DNA of 64,000 bases. It comes from Pseudoclavibacter triregionum. Its GTDB lineage: Bacteria; Actinomycetota; Actinomycetes; Actinomycetales; Microbacteriaceae. A program made the position numbers and the translations under genes. Positions 5,115 through 16,953 of the stretch are shown here, one piece after another. The stretch's first letter is position 1; each line of letters starts with the position of its first letter. Under the pieces are notes generated by a model. That model saw nothing but the letters and a program-made list of their open reading frames with translations, did no database searches and was not told the origin of the DNA. The DNA lies in NCBI GenBank assembly GCA_910822395.1, contig OU365335.1, forward strand, positions 1,426,001-1,490,000, written 5' to 3'.

Positions 5115-6161
5115 ATGACGCCCGCCGACGCCGCCATGAGCCACGCCGCCGAGCGCCGCCCTGCCGCCGAGTGCCGCGCCGCCGCCGAGCACTGCCCGAC
5201 TGCCGACCACGGCCCTGCCGGCGCGCGCCGCGTCGTCGCGAGCGCGCCCGGCAAGATCAACCTCGCCCTCGCGGTCGGCCCGCTCGACGCCGACGGCTAC
5301 CACCCGCTCGCGACCGTCTTCCTCGCCCTCGACCTCGTCGAGACCGTCGAGGCCGTCCTGCCCGCCGACGACGTCCCGACGGCGGACGCCCTCACCCTCG
5401 CCTTCGACCCCGACTCGGAGATCGATGTCGCGGGCCTCGCCTGCGACGAGTCGAACCTCGCGATCCGCGCCGCCCGCGCCCTCGCCGAGCACGCCGGCGT
5501 CGAGGCGCGCGCCGCGCTGCGCATCCGCAAGCGCGTGCCCATCGCCGGCGGCATGGGCGGGGGATCGGCCGACGCCGCCGCGACCCTCGTCGCCTGCGAC
5601 GCCCTCTGGGGGCTCGAGACGCCGCGCGAGGAGCTCCACGCGATCGCGCGCACGCTCGGCGCGGACGTCCCCTTCGCGCTCGACGGCGGCGCCGCGTTCG
5701 GCACCGGCCGCGGCGATCGCCTCGAGCCCGTGCCGGCCGCGGGCGAGCTCCACGTCCTCCTCGTCCTCGACGCGGAGGGCATGTCGACGCCCGCGACGTA
5801 CCGCGAGCTCGATCGCCTCCGGGAGACGGGCGAGCTGCCGACACCCGTGGAGACGAGCGTCGCGTCCGAGCTCCTCGCGGCGCTCGCCGCCGGCGACGCC
5901 GAGGCGCTGGCGCCGCGGCTCGCGAACGATCTGCAGGCGCCCGCCATCCACCTCCGCCCGCGGCTCGCCGAGGCGATCGCGGACGGCGTCCGCTACGGCG
6001 CCCTCGCCGGGATCGTCTCCGGCTCCGGCCCGACCGTCGCCCTCCTCGCCGCCCGCCGCGACGAGGCCCAGCATCTCGCCGCGCAGCTCGAGCTCGACGG
6101 CCGCCGCGTCCTCCTCGCCTCGGGCCCCGCGCCCGGCGCCCGCATCCTCGACGCGAGCTGA
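5115..6161 (+). CDS. ispE: 4-diphosphocytidyl-2-C-methyl-D-erythritol kinase
   Basis: IspE phosphorylates CDP-methylerythritol in the non-mevalonate isoprenoid pathway. It is a GHMP-family kinase: APGKINL near residues 44-50 holds the substrate-side Lys, the ATP-binding loop PIAGGMGGGSAD spans 142-153, and GIVSGSGPTV near the C-terminus is the third GHMP motif. The ATG at 5115 gives 348 aa, about 38 residues longer than usual at the N-terminus with an Ala/Glu/Cys/His-rich stretch; an ATG eight codons in is also possible. The product feeds uppS, also in this window. In mycobacteria rsmA-ispE are likewise adjacent. Confidence 0.95.
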   Translation: MTPADAAMSHAAERRPAAECRAAAEHCPTADHGPAGARRVVASAPGKINLALAVGPLDADGYHPLATVFLALDLVETVEAVLPADDVPTADALTLAFDPDSEIDVAGLACDESNLAIRAARALAEHAGVEARAALRIRKRVPIAGGMGGGSADAAATLVACDALWGLETPREELHAIARTLGADVPFALDGGAAFGTGRGDRLEPVPAAGELHVLLVLDAEGMSTPATYRELDRLRETGELPTPVETSVASELLAALAAGDAEALAPRLANDLQAPAIHLRPRLAEAIADGVRYGALAGIVSGSGPTVALLAARRDEAQHLAAQLELDGRRVLLASGPAPGARILDAS

Positions 6162-6280: not shown

Positions 6281-8167
6281 ATGACGATGCAGCCGCCGCA
6301 GGGCCAGCGCCCGCCCGCCAAATCCGGCGCCGCCGTCTTCCAGAAGATGCGCGCCATCGGCAAGGCGCTCGGCGAGGCCGAGGAGTTCGACCGCATCCTC
6401 GCCCGCATGAAGGACGCCCGCACCGGGCATCCCTCGATCGTCATGGTCGGCGAGATCAGCCGCGGCAAGTCGACCCTCGTGAACGCCCTCCTCGGCCAGC
6501 CCGGCCTCGCGCCCGTCGACGCCGCCGAGACGACCGCGCTCGTCGTGAACTTCGCGCCGACGACGCCCGAGAAGCCGGCCGGCACGGCCATCCTCGAGTT
6601 CGAGTACGAGCCCACCGAGCGCCCCGTGCCGCTCCAGGAGCTCTCGAGCTGGGTGCGCGTCGACGGCGCCTCGCTCCAGGCCGCCGAGTTCCCGCCGCTC
6701 CAGGCGACCGTCCACGTCGACTCGTGGCTGCTGCCGAAGACCCTCATCGTCGACACCCCCGGCACCGGCGGCCTCTCCGAGGCCTACGCCCGCCGCGCCC
6801 TCGACCGCGCCGAGCGCGCCTCCGTGCTCGTCCTCGTCACCGACGCCGGCGGCCGCATCTCGAGCCACGCCCTCGACTTCCTCCGCGCCTGCAGCGAGTC
6901 GGTCGCCGAGGTCGTCGTCGTGGTGAACAAGATCGACGCCCACCGCTCGGCGTGGCAGTCGATCGTCGAGGAGGATCGCCAGATCCTCGGCACGATCTCG
7001 GAGTGCCTCGGCCGCAGCGCCGTCCTCGGCCTCTCGGCGCGCTGGGCCGAGCAGGCCGCCCTCGAGCAGGACCCTGCCCGCCGCGCGAAGCTCCTCGAGC
7101 TCAGCCGCATCGAGGACTTCACGCGCGTCATCCGCGGCATCCTCGCGCGCGCCGACCAGCTCCCCGCCGCGAACGCCCTCCGCCAGGCGCAGTCGGCGCT
7201 CACGCCGCACCTCGAGAGCATGGTCGCCGAGAAGCAGGCCCTCGCGAGCGTCGAGGAGCGCGCCGCGAACCCCGACGCCGCCGCCGACGCCGAGCTCATG
7301 CGCGCAAAGGAGAAGCGCGAGGAGCTCCTCCTCACCTTCGACGACTCGAAGTACGACTGGCCCGCCGCGATCGAGGACCTCCGCGGCGAGCTCCAGTCGG
7401 AGACCTCCGGCCGCGCGCGCCACTTCCAGAACGTGTGGAAGGACCGCATCGACCGCGAGTGGACGAAGCTCTCGAAGGACCGCGTCATCGTCATGCAGAA
7501 CGAGCTCGACGCCGCCCTCGAGGTCGAGATGACGGCGCAGATCGCCTCGACGATCACGAAGTGCGCGAAGCTCGTCCGCTGGCTCTACGGCGAGGCCGGC
7601 ATGCAGCCGACCCCCGAGCTGCTCGAGACCTTCGGCGTGCGCCGCAACGCATGGCGCGGCCAGCGGCACGAGCAGTTCGACCGCCGCGGCCAGAAGGTCG
7701 AGGCGCGCATGCTCCTCGGCTCGGCGATGCAGGGCATCGGCCTCTCGCGCCTCGCCCTCATGGGCGTGGGCACGGCCGTCGCGCTCCCCGCCATGCTCGG
7801 CGTCGCCGTCGTGATGGGCGGCCACGCGATGTGGAGCGGCGGGCGCAAGGCGAACAAGCAGGCCGTCCTCCAGGTGCTCGGCGACCGGACGACCGAGATG
7901 CGCGAGCTCCTCGAGCGCTTCAACCGGCAGTCGATCTCGCTCATCCAGACCGAGGCGAAGAAGCAGTTCGACCGCGACCTCAAGAAGGCCGTGAACCAGG
8001 CGAAGGAGGAGGTGCAGCGCCTCCAGCAGGCGAAGTCGGCGACCGTCGAGGAGCGCAAGCGCCGCCTCGCGCAGCTCGAGCCGCGCATCGCCGACCTGCG
8101 GCAGCTGCTCGCCGCCGCCGACCGCGAGCTCGAGCAGCTCGGCTCGGGCTCCGGCGGCGGGGCGTAG
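6281..8167 (+). CDS. Dynamin-like GTPase, IniA-like, with membrane hairpin
   Basis: The 628 aa protein is a bacterial dynamin-like GTPase. G1 is GEISRGKST (57-65), G3 is DTPG (about 157-160) and G4 is NKID (about 214-217). A hydrophobic Gly/Ala/Val-rich segment at about 481-515 fits a membrane-inserting paddle or hairpin, and the last ~80 residues are predicted coiled coil rich in Lys/Glu/Arg. Architecture and length match mycobacterial IniA (about 640 aa), a membrane-remodelling GTPase of the cell-wall stress response; the assignment is by layout, not alignment. AAGGAG lies 6 nt before the ATG. It is the first gene of a dynamin / Hsp70-like / dynamin run and probably acts with the second dynamin at the inner membrane. 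Confidence 0.88.
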   Translation: MTMQPPQGQRPPAKSGAAVFQKMRAIGKALGEAEEFDRILARMKDARTGHPSIVMVGEISRGKSTLVNALLGQPGLAPVDAAETTALVVNFAPTTPEKPAGTAILEFEYEPTERPVPLQELSSWVRVDGASLQAAEFPPLQATVHVDSWLLPKTLIVDTPGTGGLSEAYARRALDRAERASVLVLVTDAGGRISSHALDFLRACSESVAEVVVVVNKIDAHRSAWQSIVEEDRQILGTISECLGRSAVLGLSARWAEQAALEQDPARRAKLLELSRIEDFTRVIRGILARADQLPAANALRQAQSALTPHLESMVAEKQALASVEERAANPDAAADAELMRAKEKREELLLTFDDSKYDWPAAIEDLRGELQSETSGRARHFQNVWKDRIDREWTKLSKDRVIVMQNELDAALEVEMTAQIASTITKCAKLVRWLYGEAGMQPTPELLETFGVRRNAWRGQRHEQFDRRGQKVEARMLLGSAMQGIGLSRLALMGVGTAVALPAMLGVAVVMGGHAMWSGGRKANKQAVLQVLGDRTTEMRELLERFNRQSISLIQTEAKKQFDRDLKKAVNQAKEEVQRLQQAKSATVEERKRRLAQLEPRIADLRQLLAAADRELEQLGSGSGGGA

Positions 8168-8279
8168 CGATCCCGCGGATGGGCGGGGGAGCGCCCCCGG
8201 GGTGGCCCTACGGGCTGAGCGGGTCCAGACCCTGGGGGGAGATCATCCCCAGAGCGTCGCCCGCGACGCATGCGGCGGC

Positions 8280-8285
8280 TACTCT
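8280..8285 (+). promoter_or_regulatory. Possible -10 element ahead of the Hsp70-like gene
   Basis: TACTCT in the 198-nt gap after the first dynamin gene would give a leader of about 75 nt. Just upstream, CTGGGG and CCCCAG (around 8230-8252) could form a weak hairpin. Confidence 0.3.
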
Positions 8286-8365
8286 TGTCGCGACATGAGG
8301 GCCCTTCCGGCCCGAACGAGCACGACTTCCGGGCTCCGGCCCGGCGAGACGCGAGCGGAGGCAGC

Positions 8366-10272
8366 GTGAACTGGGTCCTGGCCTGCGACTTCGGCACGTC
8401 GAACACCACGGCGGCCGAGATCGACGAGGACGGGCGCATCCGCGCGATCGGCCTCGAGGACCAGGGCACCTCGATGCCCTCCGCGGTCTGCCTCACCCCC
8501 TCCGGCACGCGCGTCGGCCAGTCGGCCGTGAACGCCCAGCTCGTCCACCCGGACGGCTTCGAGGCCGCGCCGAAGATGCTCATCGGCCAGGACGACGTCG
8601 TCCTCGGCGGCCGCTTCGTGAAGCCCGAGGAGCTCGTCGAGGCCGTCTACTCGGTCGTCCGCACGACCGCCCTCGCCCGCCACAACGGCCGCGAGCCTCG
8701 CGAGCTCTGGCTCACGCACCCGGTCGCCTGGGCGCCCTCGCAGCTCGAGGTCCTCAAGCGCGGCGCCGAGCGCGCCGGCTTCGACCGCCGGATCATCCGG
8801 ATGGTGCCCGAGCCGATCGCCGCCGCGACGCACTACGCGACCTCACGCTCGATCCAGCCCGGCACCCGCGTCGCCGTCTTCGACTTCGGCGGCGGCACGC
8901 TCGACATCGCCGTGCTCGAGCGCGCGCCCGAGGCCGACGGCGGCTACCGCGTCCTCGCCTACGGCGGCGACCCGCTCCTCGGCGGCCGCTCCTTCGACAA
9001 CCGCCTTCTCGAGTGGGCGCTCCAGACCGCCCGCGAGGCCGGCCAGGGCGACCTCGTCGAGCGCATCGAGAACCCGAAGGACCCGAAGGAGCTCCGCGCG
9101 AAGCTCGCCCTGCGCCGCGCCGTCACGGCCGCGAAGGTCGAGCTCTCGACGCACGCCGACGCCGATATCCCGATGTCGGTCGGCGAGATGGAGCACGTCG
9201 TGACGATCACGCGCGACGAGTACGAGCAGCTCATCTCGGCCGACGTCGAGCGCGGCGGCAAGCTCGTGAAGGACGTCCTCGACCGCGTCGGCGGCGCGAA
9301 GCCGGAGGCGATCTACCTCACCGGCGGCTCGAGCCGCACGCCCGCGATCGCGCGCATGCTCCACCGCGTCACGGGCCTCATTCCCGCGACCTTCGACGAC
9401 CCGAAGCTCGTCGTCTCGGAGGGCGCGCTCCGCGTGCGCCCGGCCGTGACCGTCGGCTCGCAGCAGCGCCCGAACGCGCCCATCCCGGCCATCGGCGCGA
9501 CGCCCGGCGTGCAGGGCCCGCTCCGCCCCGGCGCGCAGGGCCGCCAGGATCTCCGCCCCGCGCCCGGCCCGCGCATGCAGGTGCGCCCCGGCCAGCCCGG
9601 CGGCGGCCAGCGCGTCCGCCCCAGCGCCCCGCCCAGGGCGGCCCCGGCGCGGCGCGTCCCGGCCAGCCCGGGCTGCCGCCGCAGGGCGCCCGCCCGCAGG
9701 GCACCGGACCCGCCGCTCCCGGCGGCCGGACGCAGGCCGGATCGCCCGTCGGCCAGCGCCCCCAGGCCGCGCGCTCGCAGATGTCGGGCCCGGTCGGCCC
9801 CGGCTCGAACCCCTCGCAGGGCGGCCCGGGCGGCCCCGCCTCGCGCCAGATCGGCACGCGAGCGCCCATGTCGATGCCGCGCACGAACCCCTCCGGCCCG
9901 ACGGGCCCCGCCGCGCCGAGCACGCCGAGCGCACCGCGTCCGCTCGCGGGCGCGCCCGCGGCCGCCGCGCCGAAGAAGTCGCGCAAGGGCCTCTGGATCG
10001 CCCTCATCATCGTCGGCGCGATCATCGCCCTGCTCATCATCGCCGAGCTCATCGCCTCGAACATCAAGCGTCAGAACGGCGCGGAGGGGCTCGACGCCCC
10101 CGCCCCGGCCGTCCTCGCCCTCGAGGAGGCGGAGGGCTCGCCGCTCGGTGCCGATCCGCTCGCCGCGTCCCTCACGAGCGAGCCGGCCGCCGACCCCGCC
10201 GCGATCCCGGCGTCGCCCCTCGGCCCCAACGCTGCCGCCGTTCCTCTCGCCCCCGGAGCGGCCGGCGCGTGA
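8366..10272 (+). CDS. Membrane-anchored Hsp70-like ATPase, interrupted by a -1 frameshift
   Basis: GTG at 8366 follows GCGGAGGC. The first frame encodes an actin/Hsp70 ATPase of about 350 residues: DFGTSNT (8-14, phosphate 1), a DFGGGTLD phosphate-2 motif near 173-180 and GGSSRTP near 320-326 (adenosine side). No Hsp70 substrate-binding domain follows; instead there is a Pro/Gly/Gln-rich linker. Within the linker the coding signal moves to the -1 frame around the CCCC runs at 9619-9622 or 9627-9630. That second frame continues the Gln/Pro/Gly-rich linker, has one transmembrane helix (about 9990-10065) after a KKSRK stop-transfer-like patch, and ends at TGA 10272 in a GTGA overlap with the next gene. 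Adding one C restores a single ~635-aa protein. Sequencing error, true mutation and slippage on CCCC all remain possible. Confidence 0.8.
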
Positions 10273-11726
10273 GCATCGACCGCGGCACCCACGTCGCGGA
10301 GCGGATGCGGGGGAGCCTGCGCCTGCTCTGCGACGAGGTCGATCGCGCCGGAGGGCCGCCCGCGCGGCCGATCACCATGGAGATCCGCCGCACCCTCGAC
10401 GAGACCATCCGCCTCGCCGTCGTCGGCCGCGTGAAGGCCGGAAAGTCGACGCTCGTCAACGCCCTCATCGGCAAGCGCGTCGCGCCCACGAGCGAGCGGG
10501 AGTGCACGAAGATCACCACCCACTACCGCTTCGGCAGCCCCGAGCGCGGCGAGCTCGTCCTGCTCGACGGCCGCCGCATCGAGCTGCCCCTGGACGGCGG
10601 ATCGCTGCCCGAGCACCTGCCGGTCGGCGTCGAGGCCGTCTCGCACGCCGTCATCTCGCTCCAGGTCGACTCGCTCCGCGACGTCACCCTCATCGACACC
10701 CCCGGCCTCGCGACGACGACGACCGAGAACGAGGAGACGACCCGCCGCGCCCTCCTCGGACACTCGGGCGCCCGCCAGGCCGACGCGCTCCTCTACGTCT
10801 TCCACAACGTGCCCTACCTCGACGACGTCTCCTTCCTGCAGGAGTGGGGCGCGGTGACCGACAAGCCCGGCGAGTCGGCCGCGAGCGCGATCGGCATCCT
10901 CTCGCACGCCGACCAGGTCGGCGGCTCCCCGTGGGGCGCGGACGACCCGATCGAGCTCGCCCGGAAGCAGGCGCGCGACATCGCGAAGCTCCACGGCGCC
11001 CAGCTCGGCACGGTCGTCCCCGTCGCGGGCCGGATGGCCGAGGCCGCGGAGACCGGCCTCATCCGCGAGCGCGACGCCCGCAGCCTCGCCTCGCTCGCCG
11101 GCGTCGACGACTTCGACCTCGAGCTGCGCGACCCGGAGGACAAGGACGCCCGCTGCGGTGAGCTCTCCGGCGCCGAGCTCGCGAACCTCGTCGACCTCGT
11201 CGGCGAGTACGGCCTCCGCTACGGACGGCAGGCGGCGGGGGAGGGCAGCCGCGCCCTCTCGGCGTGGATGCGCGACCGCTCCGGCATCGAGGACGTCCAC
11301 CGCGCCCTCCGCGACCGCTATGTCGGCCGCGCCCAGTTCGTGAAGGTGCGCGCCGGCCTCAACCAGCTCGACCGGCTCGCGTGGGCCTGGGGCGCCCCGC
11401 CGCGCCTCAAGGAGCTTGTCGCCGAGGCGCGCCTGCGCGAGGAGTTCCACCCGATCCGCGAGCTCGACGCGCTCGAGCGCCTCTCGGCCGTCGCGCCGCA
11501 GCACGAGCTCGTGGGCCTGCTCGACCGGCAGCTCTCCGCCCGAGACGACGCGGATCGCCTCGGCGTGCCCGCGGGATCGCAGGAGGCCGTGAAGCGGGCC
11601 GCCCTCGAGCGCGTCTCGCAGGCCCGCCGCGCGATGCTCGTGAGCTCGGCGCCGCTCATCCAGCACGCCTGCCGCGTGCTCGAGCGATCCTTCACGATCA
11701 TCGCGAAGCGCGCCTCGCAGGCGTAG
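10269..11726 (+). CDS. Dynamin-like GTPase, IniC-like partner
   Basis: A 485 aa dynamin-family GTPase with G1 GRVKAGKST (53-61), a switch-I Thr in the following ERECTKITT stretch, G3 DTPG (about 141-144) and SHAD in place of the usual G4 T/NKxD. No transmembrane hairpin is visible, unlike the first dynamin of the module, so it may be recruited to membrane as a heterotypic partner. Size matches mycobacterial IniC (about 490 aa). Translation starts at a GTG inside the stop of the Hsp70-like gene (GTGA), indicating tight coupling. If the upstream frameshift is real, ribosomes in the first Hsp70 frame would read on out of phase through this gene to 11161, which would impair the coupling. Confidence 0.88.
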   Translation: MSIDRGTHVAERMRGSLRLLCDEVDRAGGPPARPITMEIRRTLDETIRLAVVGRVKAGKSTLVNALIGKRVAPTSERECTKITTHYRFGSPERGELVLLDGRRIELPLDGGSLPEHLPVGVEAVSHAVISLQVDSLRDVTLIDTPGLATTTTENEETTRRALLGHSGARQADALLYVFHNVPYLDDVSFLQEWGAVTDKPGESAASAIGILSHADQVGGSPWGADDPIELARKQARDIAKLHGAQLGTVVPVAGRMAEAAETGLIRERDARSLASLAGVDDFDLELRDPEDKDARCGELSGAELANLVDLVGEYGLRYGRQAAGEGSRALSAWMRDRSGIEDVHRALRDRYVGRAQFVKVRAGLNQLDRLAWAWGAPPRLKELVAEARLREEFHPIRELDALERLSAVAPQHELVGLLDRQLSARDDADRLGVPAGSQEAVKRAALERVSQARRAMLVSSAPLIQHACRVLERSFTIIAKRASQA

Positions 11727-11812
11727 GCGCACCGTCCTCGGCCGACGCCGGCCGCGCTGACGACGCTGCTCGCTCTGCCCGCGCACGGGCATCGCCCTCC
11801 CCCGAACGCGAA

Positions 11813-11846
11813 GAGCGCCCCGGCCCCCGAGGGGACCGGAGCGCTC
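11813..11846. terminator. Bidirectional hairpin between convergent genes
   Basis: Two 15-nt arms pair with two mismatches around a CGAG loop. It separates the dynamin gene (plus) from the calcium-loop gene (minus). No T-run. Confidence 0.6.
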
Positions 11847-11870
11847 CGGCGACCGCGCCAGGCGGGCGGC

Positions 11871-12641
11871 CTAGAGGTAGGTGGTGGCGTCCGAGTAGCC
11901 GTCGCCGTCGACATCCGTCTGGATCTCGTCGACGTAGCCGTCGCCGTCGTTGTCGGTGTAGGAGGTGTCGGTCCAGCCGTCGCCGTCGCGGTCGACGTCG
12001 ATGATGTCGGCCACGCCGTCGCCGTCGAGGTCCGTCGAGAGCGTCTCCTGGTAGCCGTCGCCGTCCTCGTCCGTGTAGACGTAGTCGGCCACGCCGTCGG
12101 CGTTCGTGTCGACGAGCTCCTGCGAGTAGTGGACGCCGTCCGAGAGGTTGTCGCGGAAGAAGTCCATGGCGCCCTGGTTGATGGTGCCGTTCGTCGCGTC
12201 GGTCATCGCGAAGTCCGAGGAGTGGGCGGCCGTCGAGAACTCGGCCTCCGTGGCCGAGTCGCCGTCCGAGCTCGCGCTGTTCGAGAAGTACGAGGTGACG
12301 GCGTCGACCGAGGACGAGTCCGACGAGTCCGACGAGACGTCCGAGGCCGAGTCGGCGGCGTCGGAGGAGTCGTAGGACGAGGTGGTCGAGGAGTACGAGC
12401 CGTAGTCGCCCGACCACTCGCCGTAGGGGTCGAAGAACGACTGGCCGCTGTAGTCGTCGATGCCGTTCTCGTTCCAGTCGTAGTAGAACTCGTCGACGTA
12501 GCCGTCGTAGTCGGTGTCGACGTCCCAGGCGTCGATCCAGCCGTCGTCGTCGAGGTCATAGGCGATCGTCTCCGCGATGCCGTCGCCGTCGGCGTCCCAG
12601 GTGGAGGAGTTCCAGTACGTGTCGTCGTAGTAGTAGCTCAT
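11871..12641 (-). CDS. Cytosolic acidic protein with ten 13-residue DxDGDG calcium-type loops
   Basis: The 256 aa protein starts MSYYYDD and has no signal peptide or membrane segment. Ten 13-residue repeats of consensus DxDGDGxxDxxxx form two blocks: four at residues 16-67 and six at 178-256. Between them is a Ser/Asp/Tyr-rich linker with one possible helix (AMDFFRDNL). The pattern equals the Ca2+-binding loop of EF-hand-like and thrombospondin type-3 repeats, which are normally extracytoplasmic; here export signals are absent. The start was chosen where the acidic repeats begin and upstream sequence turns non-coding; AGCGGAACC precedes the ATG. It is transcribed toward the dynamin module and follows a second loop protein. 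The function is unknown; a Ca2+-sensitive scaffold for the neighbouring GTPases is speculation. Confidence 0.8.
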   Translation of the reverse strand: MSYYYDDTYWNSSTWDADGDGIAETIAYDLDDDGWIDAWDVDTDYDGYVDEFYYDWNENGIDDYSGQSFFDPYGEWSGDYGSYSSTTSSYDSSDAADSASDVSSDSSDSSSVDAVTSYFSNSASSDGDSATEAEFSTAAHSSDFAMTDATNGTINQGAMDFFRDNLSDGVHYSQELVDTNADGVADYVYTDEDGDGYQETLSTDLDGDGVADIIDVDRDGDGWTDTSYTDNDGDGYVDEIQTDVDGDGYSDATTYL

Positions 12642-12833
12642 GGTTCCGCTCGCTTTCGTGGTGCCAGGTGGTGCGGTCATCTCTTTGATGCCGCGGGGCC
12701 GTGGAAAGTTCCGGCGGGCCGCGGAGTCGTCCTCGAGGATGACTCGAGAGCGAAGCGGAGCCGTTTCGGAACATTCTTCGGCCTGGGATGAACGGAAGGC
12801 AACGGACCGGAGTCGGATCTCCGGGCACGACGA

Positions 12834-12868
12834 GGCGGGGCCCGGATCGCCTGGATCCGGGCCCCGCC
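12834..12868. terminator. Perfect 15-bp hairpin after the second calcium-loop gene
   Basis: GGCGGGGCCCGGATC pairs perfectly with its complement around a 5-nt loop, 19 nt beyond the stop at 12887. It separates the two loop-protein genes, so each probably has its own transcript. Confidence 0.7.
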
Positions 12869-12886
12869 CTGAAGCTCGCGCTCGCG

Positions 12887-13474
12887 CTAGAAGAGCTCGC
12901 CGCCGGCAGCGCCGTCGTCGGCCATGCTGTCGTCCGCGAGGCCGTCGTCGAAGGACTCCGCGCCGAGGGAGCCGTCGTCGGAGGCCGTCCACGCCTCGTC
13001 GGCGAAGGCGTCGCCGGCGTGCTCGTCCGCGGAGGCCTCGGCGAAGGCGTCCGGCTGCTCGTCGGACCGCCCGTCGCCGTCGAGGTCGGCGGATGCCTCG
13101 TGCTGCGGGTCGCCGGAGACCGCGGGCTCCTGGTCGTCCGGGATGCCGTCGCCATCGAGGTCGACGACCTCGGCGTCCGGGTCGACCTCGAAGCCGTGGA
13201 AGAAGTCCTCGAGGCCGCGGACGATGCCCTCGATGGCCTCGGTGATGCTCGCCGCGAACTCGGCGAGGAGGTCGTCGCCCGCGGGCTCGGCGCTGAAGGC
13301 CGTGTCGAGCATGGCGTCCCACGTGGCGTCGTCGAGGGCCGGCGGCTCGCCGAGGACGCTCGGCTCCGAGGCCGGGTCGTCGACGCCGGCGTCCGCGACC
13401 GAGGCGTCGGCCGCGAAGGCGCCGGCGAGCTCGTCGCCGTCGTACTCGGCGGCGAAGGCGTCGTAGTCGGTCAT
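12887..13474 (-). CDS. Acidic cytosolic protein with two DLDGDG loops
   Basis: The 195 aa protein (MTDYDAFAAEYDGDE...) is very rich in Asp, Ala and Glu and lacks a signal peptide or membrane helix. A central segment, LLAEFAASITEAIEGIVRGLEDFFHG (described in parts: residues about 75-100), looks like an amphipathic helix. Two calcium-type loops, DLDGDGIPDDQ and DLDGDGRSDEQ, follow it. It shares with the downstream loop protein a CGGAACC leader motif just before the ATG, suggesting common translational features or duplication. It is divergent from the sigma factor gene. I do not recognise a named family. Confidence 0.75.
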   Translation of the reverse strand: MTDYDAFAAEYDGDELAGAFAADASVADAGVDDPASEPSVLGEPPALDDATWDAMLDTAFSAEPAGDDLLAEFAASITEAIEGIVRGLEDFFHGFEVDPDAEVVDLDGDGIPDDQEPAVSGDPQHEASADLDGDGRSDEQPDAFAEASADEHAGDAFADEAWTASDDGSLGAESFDDGLADDSMADDGAAGGELF

Positions 13475-13495
13475 CTCGGTTCCGTTCGTGCAGAG

Positions 13496-13520
13496 CGCCG
13501 CGGGTGGGTGGCCCGCGGCG
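13496..13520 (-). promoter_or_regulatory. 9-bp hairpin in the presumed leader of the two-loop protein gene
   Basis: CGCCGCGGG and CCCGCGGCG flank a 7-nt loop, 21 nt upstream of the ATG. It may be a leader structure or chance GC symmetry. Confidence 0.35.
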
Positions 13521-13614
13521 CGTGGCGGTGCTGAGGAGCGTGGTCGTCGGCCCGTCCCGCCCCGCCGCGCCTGCGGCCGAGGGGATCGGACGTCGATTGG
13601 ATGCGGCGTGGGGC

Positions 13615-13625
13615 GGAAATGTTCC
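13615..13625. promoter_or_regulatory. GGAAATGTTCC palindrome between divergent genes
   Basis: A perfect GGAA-N3-TTCC palindrome lies 141 nt before the two-loop protein gene and 142 nt before the sigma gene. A related TCGGAACATT stretch lies near 12769-12780 upstream of the other loop gene. Candidate regulator site only. Confidence 0.3.
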
Positions 13626-13738
13626 CGATTCGTCCGGATTCCTCCGGGCGGCTCGTCGCGAGCGCCCCGAGAGGGCATCCGGATGCCGTCCCCTCCGCGT
13701 CGGACCACGGGCTGATGCGCCGCGTCACCGCGATGCAG

Positions 13739-13744
13739 TAGCTT
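13739..13744 (+). promoter_or_regulatory. Possible -10 element of the ECF sigma gene
   Basis: TAGCTT lies 23 nt before the GTG, leaving room for a short leader that contains AGGAGGGG (13757-13764). Confidence 0.35.
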
Positions 13745-13767
13745 CCCACGAGATCAGGAGGGGACGC

Positions 13768-14301
13768 GTGCCGAAGACCGAGGCGGAGCTGCTCGCACTC
13801 GCCAAGCAGGGCGACCGGGCCGCGTTCAACGCGCTCGTCGCGCCGTACCGGGATCGCCTCTGGGCCGTGTGCCTGCGCACCACCCGCCACCGCGCCGATG
13901 CGGAGGACGCGCTTCAGGACTGCCTCATCGCCGTCTGGCAGAACCTCGACAAGTTCCGCGGCGAGGCCGGCGTCGCGACGTGGATGTTCCGCATCGCCGC
14001 GAACGCCTCGCTCGCCGTCGTCCGCCGTCGCCGCGAGGTCGTGCCCCACGACGACACGGCCTTCGAGAACGAGAACCCTTCGCGCGATCACGCGGGCTCG
14101 GTCGCCGACCGGGATCGCGTGCAGCGCGCGCTCAAGGTGCTGCCGGAGGACTTTCGCGTCGCGCTCGTGCTCCGCGAGTACGGCGACTACTCGTACCAGC
14201 AGATCGCCGACTACCAGCAGGTGTCGATCCAGACGGTGAAGAGCCGCCTCAACCGCGCGCGCACGATGATGGCGCGCGAGCTCGGATCGCTCGAGGGCTG
14301 A
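13768..14301 (+). CDS. ECF-type RNA polymerase sigma factor
   Basis: A 177 aa two-domain sigma factor. Region 2 covers about residues 19-80 (FNALVAPYRDRLW ... DAEDALQDCLIAVW ... WMFRIAANASL), region 4 about 125-170 (LPEDFRVALVLREYGDYSYQQIADYQQ followed by VKSRLNRARTMM). GTG start is set by AGGAGGGG four nt upstream. No anti-sigma gene lies next to it: downstream is a convergent methyltransferase, upstream the divergent calcium-loop genes and the dynamin module. It may be controlled by expression level or by an unlinked partner. Inference: it could control the neighbouring loop-protein genes. Confidence 0.92.
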   Translation: MPKTEAELLALAKQGDRAAFNALVAPYRDRLWAVCLRTTRHRADAEDALQDCLIAVWQNLDKFRGEAGVATWMFRIAANASLAVVRRRREVVPHDDTAFENENPSRDHAGSVADRDRVQRALKVLPEDFRVALVLREYGDYSYQQIADYQQVSIQTVKSRLNRARTMMARELGSLEG

Positions 14302-15060: not shown

Positions 15061-16953
15061 CTAGCCGCCGAGCTGCTCGCCGAGCTCGAGCCACCGCTCC
15101 TCGAGCGTCGACTGCTCCTCGACGAGGCCGTCCCGCTCGGCCGCGAGCGCCGCGAGGCCCTCGAAGTCGCCGTGGTCGTGCGCGGCCATCCGGTCGTCGA
15201 GCTCGCCGAGGAGCGACTCGAGCTTGCCGAGGCGCCGGTCGATCGAGGCGAGCTCCTTCTCGGCGGTACGTCGCTCGGCGCCCGAGAGCTGGGGCGCGGT
15301 CGGCGCGGACGACGAAGGTGCCGAAGATGACGTCGCGCCGGCGCTCGCCGGGGCCGTGGCCGACGACGATCCGCCGCCCGTCCCGCCGCCCGCCGCCGTC
15401 GGGTGCGTCGCGCGATCGGCCGCCGTCGCCGCCGCGCCGCCCGCCGCCTCCTCGCGCGCCCGCAGGCGCAGGTACTCGTCGACGCCGCCGGGCAGGTGCC
15501 GCAGGCCCTTCTGCCACACCGCGTACTGCTGGTCCGTCACGCGCTCGAGCAGGTAGCGGTCGTGCGAGACGACGAGGAGCGTGCCGGGCCACGAGTCGAG
15601 GAGGTCCTCCATCGCAGCGAGCATGTCGGTGTCGAGGTCGTTCGTCGGCTCGTCGAGGATGAGCACGTTGGGCTCGTCGAGGAGGATGAGCAGCAGCTGC
15701 AGGCGCCGCCGCTGGCCGCCCGAGAGGTCCTTGATCGCCGTCGAGAGCTGCGGGCTCGTGAAGCCGAGCCGCTCGAGCAGCTGGGAGGGCGAGAGCTCCT
15801 TGCCGCCGGCGACGTAGCTCGTCTTCACGCGGGCGATGACCTCGCGCACCATGTCGTCGGCGTGGTCGTCGAGCTCGGCGAGGCGCTGCGAGAGCGTCGC
15901 GATCTTCACCGTCTTGCCGCGCTTCACGCGTCCGCTCGTCGGCTCGATCTCGCCCGAGATGAGCTTGAGGAGGGTCGACTTGCCGGCGCCGTTCACGCCG
16001 AGGATGCCCGTGCGCTCGCCCGGGGCGATGCGCCACTCGATGCCGCGGAGGATCTCCTTCTCGCCGAAGCTGACGCCGGCCTCGAGGAGGTCGACGACGT
16101 CCTTCCCCAGGCGCGCGGTCGCCATCTGGGCGAGCTCGATCGAGTTGCGGACGGGCGGGACGTCCTCGATGAGCTGGTTCGCGGCCTCGATGCGGAACTT
16201 CGGCTTGGAGGTGCGGGCGGGCGCGCCGCGGCGCAGCCACGCGAGCTCCTTCCGCATGAGGTTCTGGCGCTTCTCCTCGGCGGCGGCGGCCTGGCGATCC
16301 CGCTCGACGCGCTGGAGGATGTACGCCGCGTAGCCGCCCTCGAAGGGCTCGAGGATGCGGTCGTGCACCTCCCAGGTGTCGGTGCAGACCGCGTCGAGGA
16401 ACCAGCGGTCGTGGGTGACGACGACGAGACCGCCCGCGGTCTTCGACCAGCGCCGGTTGAGGTGCTCGGCGAGCCAGGCGATGCCCTCGACGTCGAGGTG
16501 GTTCGTGGGCTCGTCGAGGAGGAGGATGTCCCACTCGCCGGTGAGCAGGGCCGCGAGCGCGACGCGGCGCTGCTGGCCGCCCGAGAGGTCGCCGATGCGC
16601 GCGTGCCAGTCGAGGTCGCCGACGAGGCCGCGGATGACGTCGCGCACCTTCGGGTCGCCCGCCCACTCGTGCTCGGGGCGGTCGCCGACGATCGCGGCGC
16701 CGACCTCGAGCTCGGGGTCGAGGGTGTCGCCCTGGTCGAGCATCCCGATCGTCACGCCGCGGCGGACGGTCACCTGCCCGGAGTCGGGCTCGATGCGGCC
16801 GGCGAGGAGCTTGAGGAGCGTCGACTTGCCGTCGCCGTTGCGGCCGACGATGCCGATGCGGTCGCCCTCGGCGATGCCGATCGTCACGGAGTCGAAGACG
16901 ACGCGGGTCGGGAACTCGAGATGGAGCGCTTCCGCGCCGAGGAGATGGGCCAC
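15061..16953 (-). CDS. ABC-F family ATPase, Uup-like
   Basis: The 630 aa cytosolic protein has two ABC domains and no membrane segments. Walker A motifs are GRNGDGKST (37-45) and GVNGAGKST (about 325); both halves have LSGGQ signatures, [11 protein letters not shown] and [11 protein letters not shown] Walker B motifs, and switch His residues (VVVTHD, LVVSHD). A charged linker, Ser/Thr/Ala-rich tether and C-terminal coiled coil (about 560-630) resemble Uup, whose tail binds DNA or ribosomes. ABC-F proteins act in the ribosomal E site to resolve stalled translation. Start GTG at 16953 follows TACCCT by 6 nt. In relatives this gene follows ispE; here the dynamin module lies between. Confidence 0.9.

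Follow-up and report, generated by a model that had tools for sequence, protein, structure and literature searches.

A dynamin-pair gene cluster with an Hsp70-type ATPase, DxDGDG-loop proteins and an ECF sigma factor in Pseudoclavibacter triregionum points to an inducible membrane-maintenance system distinct from iniBAC

Paired dynamin-like proteins, an acidic and repetitive partner and a dedicated regulator characterise the mycobacterial iniBAC cluster and its regulator IniR (PMC6715688, PMC5760070). IniA is described as having GTP-dependent fission activity in vitro, with a part in membrane repair proposed by its authors (PMC6715688), and the paper on IniR calls the role of IniB unclear and remarks that stoichiometry might favour high IniB over IniA and IniC (PMC5760070). 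Here we describe a related block in a stretch of 64,000 nucleotides from Pseudoclavibacter triregionum (contig OU365335.1, positions 1,426,001 to 1,490,000; hereafter the window), in which two dynamin-like GTPase genes, DYN1 and DYN2, enclose a gene for an Hsp70-type ATPase and are followed by two genes for proteins with DxDGDG loops (LOOPA and LOOPB, collectively LOOP) and a gene for an extracytoplasmic function (ECF) sigma factor (Table 1). The block is a coherent module, more than a chance neighbourhood, and a variant of dynamin-pair clusters distinct from iniBAC proper; it points to an inducible membrane-maintenance system. To our knowledge, the roles and control of most bacterial dynamins are largely open, and the recurring partners of this pair (a membrane-tethered Hsp70-type ATPase, a GrpE-like factor, calcium-loop proteins and an ECF sigma factor with a candidate promoter) offer concrete handles on dynamin function: in Microbacteriaceae such as Pseudoclavibacter, a promoter reporter could reveal the inducing stress, and the partners could be co-purified with the dynamins. 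The system seems to be unstudied so far, as a literature search covering open full texts, with most subscription papers outside it, returned no title or abstract on actinobacterial dynamin pairs with ECF, LOOP or Hsp70 partners.

A DYN2-type profile matched 35 of 398 Microbacteriaceae genomes, including that of the window organism (G000; 2.36 Mb in a single contig). Stretches from all 35 were fetched and their genes labelled by BLAST against reference proteins of the window and of loci L038-L042, after gene calling with a simple codon-position caller that missed some lower-GC genes (most of the Hsp70-like gene in L083, L093 and L094, regained by a frame search). The window arrangement, here type II, was found in 12 genomes: G000, its congener [Zimmermannella] alba NBRC 15616, now Pseudoclavibacter albus (G009), nine genomes of genus g21, and G241 of genus g26. 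An iniBAC-like arrangement, type I, in which IniB accompanies IniA and/or IniC, was found in 21, and 18 of these carry a STAND/LuxR-type regulator like that of locus L040, L040 itself included (GerE, 60.7 bits). One genome, G401, has both types, and for G311 and G076 the fetched stretch did not permit typing. Type II clusters differ from iniBAC in having an ECF sigma factor instead of the STAND regulator, DxDGDG-loop proteins under their own promoter, and an ATPase gene between the dynamins; neither IniB nor an L040-like regulator was labelled among the called genes of the type II dynamin stretches of the family. In a DYN2 tree of 71 rows, in which deep joins are unsure and some labels automatic, 11 type II rows from the family group in a clade of their own (100/98) apart from the IniB-linked rows, whose grouping is weak (88/60). 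Rows L173, L175 and L177-L179, labelled type II by script through a loop gene of 477-497 amino acids (733 as called in L177), are not counted here, and rows of family f35 labelled "ECFonly" have LOOP genes below the script's limit of 120 amino acids. In 11 of the 12 type II genomes the cluster sits at one chromosomal site, next to its ksgA/ispE or its ABC-F flank.

The sigma factor and the loop proteins follow this type of dynamin cluster closely. Orthologs of the window ECF (E ≤ 1e-36) occur in 13 of the 398 family genomes, which are the 12 of type II and G130, a 66%-complete genome whose ECF ortholog adjoins DYN1 on a 4.8-kb contig. The comparison set comprised 12 genomes: six of type I and six genus-mates in which the DYN2-type profile found no match. 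At E ≤ 1e-22 the ECF query found a protein of 36% identity in one of the six type I genomes (G059) and nothing in the genus-mates (0/6), and the LOOP query matched all 12 type II genomes against none of the 12 used for comparison. ECF and dynamins share a fetched stretch in 9 of the 12 type II genomes, and in G191 and G240 a contig ends between them. The first-pass annotation had considered that loop and sigma genes might lie next to unrelated genes and the dynamins occur without them; in this lineage they occur together, and both also recur next to dynamin pairs in other families. The window ECF itself has regions 2 and 4 (PF04542 and PF08281). No anti-sigma gene was recognised beside it when the neighbours were read by eye and not scanned with an anti-sigma profile; such a function could fall to LOOPB or to the Hsp70-type protein.

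In the window's genus, LOOP genes have the pattern GGAAC-N16/17-GCATC in common upstream of their starts. Other bipartite words were common to at most three sequences, unless they overlapped the GGAAC/GCATC word, and were dropped. GGAAC is typical of the -35 elements of ECF promoters. Because the pattern derives in part from sites of the window genome, only other genera serve as a test; with a spacer of 15-18 bp, within about 220 bp upstream and leaving out genes with fewer than 150 bases upstream, it stands before 28 of 38 LOOP genes in g21 and g26 compared with 3 of the 211 other genes in the full set of loci, an odds ratio of 194 across rows that, coming from related genomes and paralogs, are not independent. 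When all loci are counted, a site stands before 35 of 47 LOOP genes (LOOPA-type 29/37, LOOPB 6/10), and in the same 748 kb the real pattern occurs 48 times and its reversal once. An extra TT is present in 33 sites, one of which (L107) is not upstream of a called gene; 32 have a 16-bp spacer, and the 33 give the consensus CGGGAACTTTCC then GCATCCAAT. The form GGAACNTTN{11,13}GCATC occurs 47 times in the twelve type II genomes and three times in the whole of G000, before LOOPA, LOOPB and a LOOP gene 0.45 Mb off at 1.884 Mb (1884283-1885083, L206, 266 amino acids); the fourth LOOP gene of G000, at 0.391 Mb (C1:390960-392810, L205, 616 amino acids), has a site with one extra spacer base. Most LOOP genes, unlinked copies included, thus share a promoter. 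Since co-occurrence in the family is complete and the -35 element is of the ECF type, this sigma factor probably reads the LOOP promoter, and the window-type ECF most likely drives the LOOP genes. The promoter evidence also supports inducible loop proteins over inducible dynamins.

Sites of this kind were also seen in g21 before an open reading frame of 36-42 amino acids with a shared ALxWY motif (L207 2381+, L210 1650+, L213 5105-, L214 5378-), which adjoins a gene read by eye as phosphoenolpyruvate (PEP) carboxykinase and is possibly a regulon microprotein. In three g21 genomes the pattern lies between two genes read by eye as Ser/Thr protein kinases (L208 5505-, L212 1882+, L215 2119+).

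The 18 LOOP proteins that we examined show 174 spacings of exactly 13 residues between successive loops, 16-32% acidic and at most 5% basic residues, a single Cys among them all, and no hydrophobic N-terminal stretch. Their tandem DxDxDG loops recall thrombospondin type 3 and EF-hand repeats, from which they differ in the regular 13-residue spacing, the near absence of Cys, the lack of a hydrophobic N-terminus and scores below the cut-off of every Pfam family matched. In the window LOOPA has two runs of 13-residue repeats and LOOPB only two loops. A motif LGxxPx[LV]xxxxWxxxLxxx[FY], read by eye after a regular expression had failed on the ten family LOOPB proteins, is present in all ten, and small acidic proteins in five other clusters show a looser P...W...A form. 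LOOP-type stretches are fused to a C39-like peptidase in G241 and G723. Fusions of DxDGDG and C39-like peptidase domains lie inside dynamin clusters at L107 5133-6494 and L165 7164-8408. The IniB proteins of type I clusters are likewise acidic (13-35% Asp plus Glu) and repetitive, which suggests a slot equivalent to that of LOOP. Structure predictions from two-row alignments gave pLDDT values of 33 for LOOPA and 34 for DYN2.

Outside the family, a search of the class matched 63 of 394 genomes and a search of the order 22 of 297; larger stretches were examined from 33 and 10 of these, picked mainly for low scores and hence not a fair sample. The combination of dynamin pair, ECF and LOOP recurs there in four other families: G1019 (f18), G627 (f22), G723 and G495 (f45) and six genomes of f35. 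Gene orders vary among these clusters, as they do within Microbacteriaceae in G241. The LOOP query matched 9 of 17 further genomes of other families. In G1019 the plain pattern stands before the Hsp70-like, DYN2 and DYN1 genes and before LOOP, and in G495 before DYN1, so that the sigma factor may drive the machine genes there. A dynamin pair accompanies a LOOP-type gene in three genomes (G651, G762 and G502); an apparent response regulator lies close by, and no adjacent gene was labelled ECF. Loci L161, L181 and L183 show an apparent response regulator in place of ECF with such a pair and LOOP-type gene, and a PEP carboxykinase gene was read by eye near L161 and L183. Five loci (L153, L154, L184, L185 and L186) combine a dynamin pair with an Hsp70-like gene, neither IniB nor LOOP being labelled, and perhaps represent a further kind of cluster.

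Overall, we consider the best explanation of the locus to be that it is one member of a conserved actinobacterial type II module with ECF-driven LOOP genes and calcium-linked dynamin repair, and hold it to be moderately probable. Its machine part would consist of the two dynamin-like GTPases and the Hsp70-type ATPase domain, which a linker and a single helix would hold at the membrane. In its inducible part an ECF sigma factor recognising GGAAC-16 bp-GCATC(CAAT) would switch on at least one very acidic protein built of 13-residue DxDGDG loops and lacking a recognisable signal peptide (LOOPA), together with LOOPB as a companion with a Trp motif. Envelope or membrane stress would then cause LOOP proteins to be made in bulk. 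Where the membrane is damaged, they would bind the Ca2+ that enters and would recruit the dynamin pair, or tune it, to bring about membrane repair or fission; the Hsp70-type ATPase would power the assembly of the dynamin complex or its release. The place of IniB in iniBAC would in this way be taken by LOOP proteins, and we see in their separate induction a parallel to the excess of IniB over IniA and IniC that the IniR paper mentions as possible. We would suggest, tentatively, that LOOP and dynamins act together at the membrane, that Ca2+ may gate this action, and that the Hsp70-type ATPase may control assembly. Bolder still, and in our view rather unlikely, is a picture of a calcium-operated membrane-repair machine of actinobacteria, in which the ECF fills the cytosol with Ca2+-loop proteins and these in turn gate a dynamin pair that the Hsp70-type ATPase keeps at the membrane; iniBAC would be a sister version of the same modular design, in which the acidic partner (IniB or LOOP) and the regulator (STAND protein, ECF sigma factor or two-component system) can be exchanged.

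Several observations weigh against the moderately probable explanation given above. Twelve of the 47 LOOP genes have no site, nor do any of the ECF, DYN1, Hsp70-type and DYN2 genes of the family loci (0/40), with a possible exception outside this count in the G130 fragment, where a site lies some 400 bp upstream of the point at which DYN1 was called to begin. The count of three sites in G000 is not independent, the pattern being partly derived from them, and GGAACNTTN{11,13}GCATC also occurs six times in ten genomes without type II clusters. The ECF-LOOP block of G351 lies among other genes, on a different contig from its dynamin block. The Pfam thrombospondin type 3 and EF-hand models stayed below cut-off for the LOOP proteins scanned, which were six in one scan, where LOOPA was used in full, and window LOOPA and LOOPB, without their first 10 and 29 residues, in another (both were used in full with PADLOC). 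In other families no strict promoter site was found in the cluster stretches of G627 and G723; the LOOP query fell below its 1e-6 threshold in G723, G651, G762 and G502, where motif counts or short BLAST matches alone revealed the LOOP-type genes; and four f36 clusters have ECF and an Hsp70-like gene with no clear LOOP. The six f35 genomes have LOOP-like matches away from the cluster as well, and a dynamin-side ECF of 37-39% identity beside a better match to the window ECF elsewhere (40-41%).

The missing promoters at dynamin, Hsp70-type and ECF genes of the family loci, the separability of the ECF-LOOP block in G351 and the two further LOOP genes elsewhere in G000 would all suit LOOP proteins that are calcium or metal buffers, or structural polymers, under sigma control and uncoupled from the dynamins, with which they would share no more than a stress. 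LOOP co-occurs, however, with one dynamin type in Microbacteriaceae, and in other families it again stands next to dynamin pairs, even where, as in G651 and G762, the cluster has no ECF. We therefore regard such uncoupling as unlikely, if still to be reckoned with. A plain Microbacteriaceae iniBAC with chance neighbours, in which DYN1 would be IniA and DYN2 IniC, is improbable. The first-pass annotation had made this identification from protein sizes, which are indeed similar; DYN1 does match Mycobacterium smegmatis IniA (6j72, E = 7.5e-8) over residues 25-231, the GTPase part, and the IniB proteins of type I are acidic and repetitive too. However, separate IniB-bearing clusters with other partners exist in the same family, and G401 carries such a cluster as well as one of type II, whose DYN2 stands as a separate clade outside the weakly supported IniB-linked group; window-type clusters keep their partners as a set, with no IniB or STAND regulator recognised.

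Dynamin-like GTPases also occur in pairs in the Eleos (Leo) systems. PADLOC's LeoBC model matches DYN1 (E = 1.2e-21) and its LeoA model DYN2 (E = 3.4e-12), which raises the thought of an anti-phage or conflict system with Leo-kind dynamins and an Hsp70/GrpE threshold device. Hsp70 and GrpE feature together in the GAP1-N2 GTPase-centric systems (Kaur et al. 2020, PMC7159879), where a GTPase is described as linked in actinobacteria with Hsp70, GrpE and Hsp70 without a peptide-binding domain; unlike type II, those systems use DO-GTPases, GAP1 and FNIII proteins, and the word dynamin is absent from the main text of that paper. Type II differs from Eleos in its partners, its ECF-LOOP association and its fixed site, 11 of the 12 family genomes keeping the cluster at one chromosomal position and not in a variable island. 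With no effector recognised by eye, and a LeoBC model that may match dynamins generally, we think a defence role very improbable.

The Hsp70-type ATPase of the window matches PF00012 (103.6 bits, E = 1.1e-29) over profile positions 107-369 of 599 and the DnaK model over positions 3-366, with the Hsp70 ATPase-domain motifs DFGT and DFGGGTLD. Beyond position 369 the PF00012 profile is unmatched, and a Pro-rich linker stands in place of a substrate-binding domain. The ATPase domain had been read as part of a membrane-anchored Hsp70; the domain itself stands, and the anchor, a helix with a KD19 value of 3.09, lies in another frame. The membrane-anchored protein is thus split in the window, since ATPase domain and linker with helix are in different frames, with the change in the Pro-rich, GC-rich linker (the frame of 8366 is open to 11161, the helix frame from 9013 to 10272). 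This change may be real or an assembly error. In G009 a contig break falls within the linker, with frames open on both sides, and the neighbours RsmI, MetG, TatD, IspE, DYN1, DYN2, ABC-F, GlmU and Prs align with those of G009 over most of their length. A single open frame is seen in every type II genome of g21 (nine) and also in G241, ten of the family's 12. It encodes the ATPase domain, a linker, one helix and an outer tail, which has 180-190 residues with four Cys in g21 and 216 residues with six Cys in G241; the tails of G1019 and G723 likewise have four Cys, and in the window organism and G009 the tail is short and lacks the Cys-bearing domain.

The Hsp70 had further been taken for an addition specific to this block. 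That is not so, as an Hsp70-like gene is present in 18 of 27 IniB-bearing loci with a DYN2 row, from Microbacteriaceae and other families, and Hsp70-like genes thus stand near many type I clusters too; because of this count, the Hsp70-dynamin link is wider than the block. GrpE-domain genes lie within several related dynamin clusters (PF01025 over cut-off in L158, L159, L161 and L183, below it in L152), the first four of which, with genes for the GrpE C-terminal domain, also carry Hsp70-like or LOOP-type genes. A GrpE-domain gene in the cluster would fit an exchange factor for the Hsp70-type ATPase.

Both dynamins score above the Pfam Dynamin_N cut-off at the sizes first proposed, 628 and 485 amino acids. 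DYN1 has the P-loop GEISRGKST and the motif DTPGT of Dynamin_N, and one strongly hydrophobic stretch (KD19 2.10 at 493). In a six-row alignment of DYN2-type proteins G53, V55-L62 and D143-G146 are invariant, and the window DYN2 has orthologs of 80% identity in G009 and 57% in G029. The proposed GTGA coupling of ATPase gene and DYN2 is seen in the helix frame, whose end at 10272 overlaps the DYN2 GTG at 10269. Two DxDGDG genes and an ECF gene do follow DYN2 as first described, with the loop genes on the minus and not the plus strand, pointing towards DYN2 and away from the sigma gene.

Table 1. Features of the dynamin block, in window coordinates.
Feature	Position	Strand	Description
DYN1	6281..8167	+	628-residue dynamin-like GTPase, hydrophobic stretch near residue 493; PF00350 45.2 bits
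Hsp70-type ATPase domain	8366..9580	+	3' limit approximate; no substrate-binding domain; PF00012
Pro-rich linker, one membrane helix (about 9997-10053), short outer tail	9580..10272	+	5' limit approximate; frame differs from that of the ATPase domain
DYN2	10269..11726	+	485-residue dynamin-like GTPase; PF00350 54.3 bits; GTGA overlap with preceding frame
LOOPA	11871..12641	-	256 residues, isoelectric point 4.05; 13-residue DxDGDG repeats; no hydrophobic N-terminus
Candidate ECF-like promoter site of LOOPA	12687..12712	-	71 bp upstream of LOOPA start
LOOPB	12887..13474	-	195 residues, acidic; motif LGExPxLxxxxWDxML in common with G009
Candidate ECF-like promoter site of LOOPB	13600..13625	-	151 bp upstream of LOOPB start
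ECF sigma factor	13768..14301	+	177 residues; PF04542 and PF08281 over cut-off

The block lies, as proposed at the outset, between ispE (5115-6161) and the ABC-F gene (15061-16953), both named by eye. The gene after the ECF is a minus-strand methyltransferase by eye in the window and ABC-F in G029.

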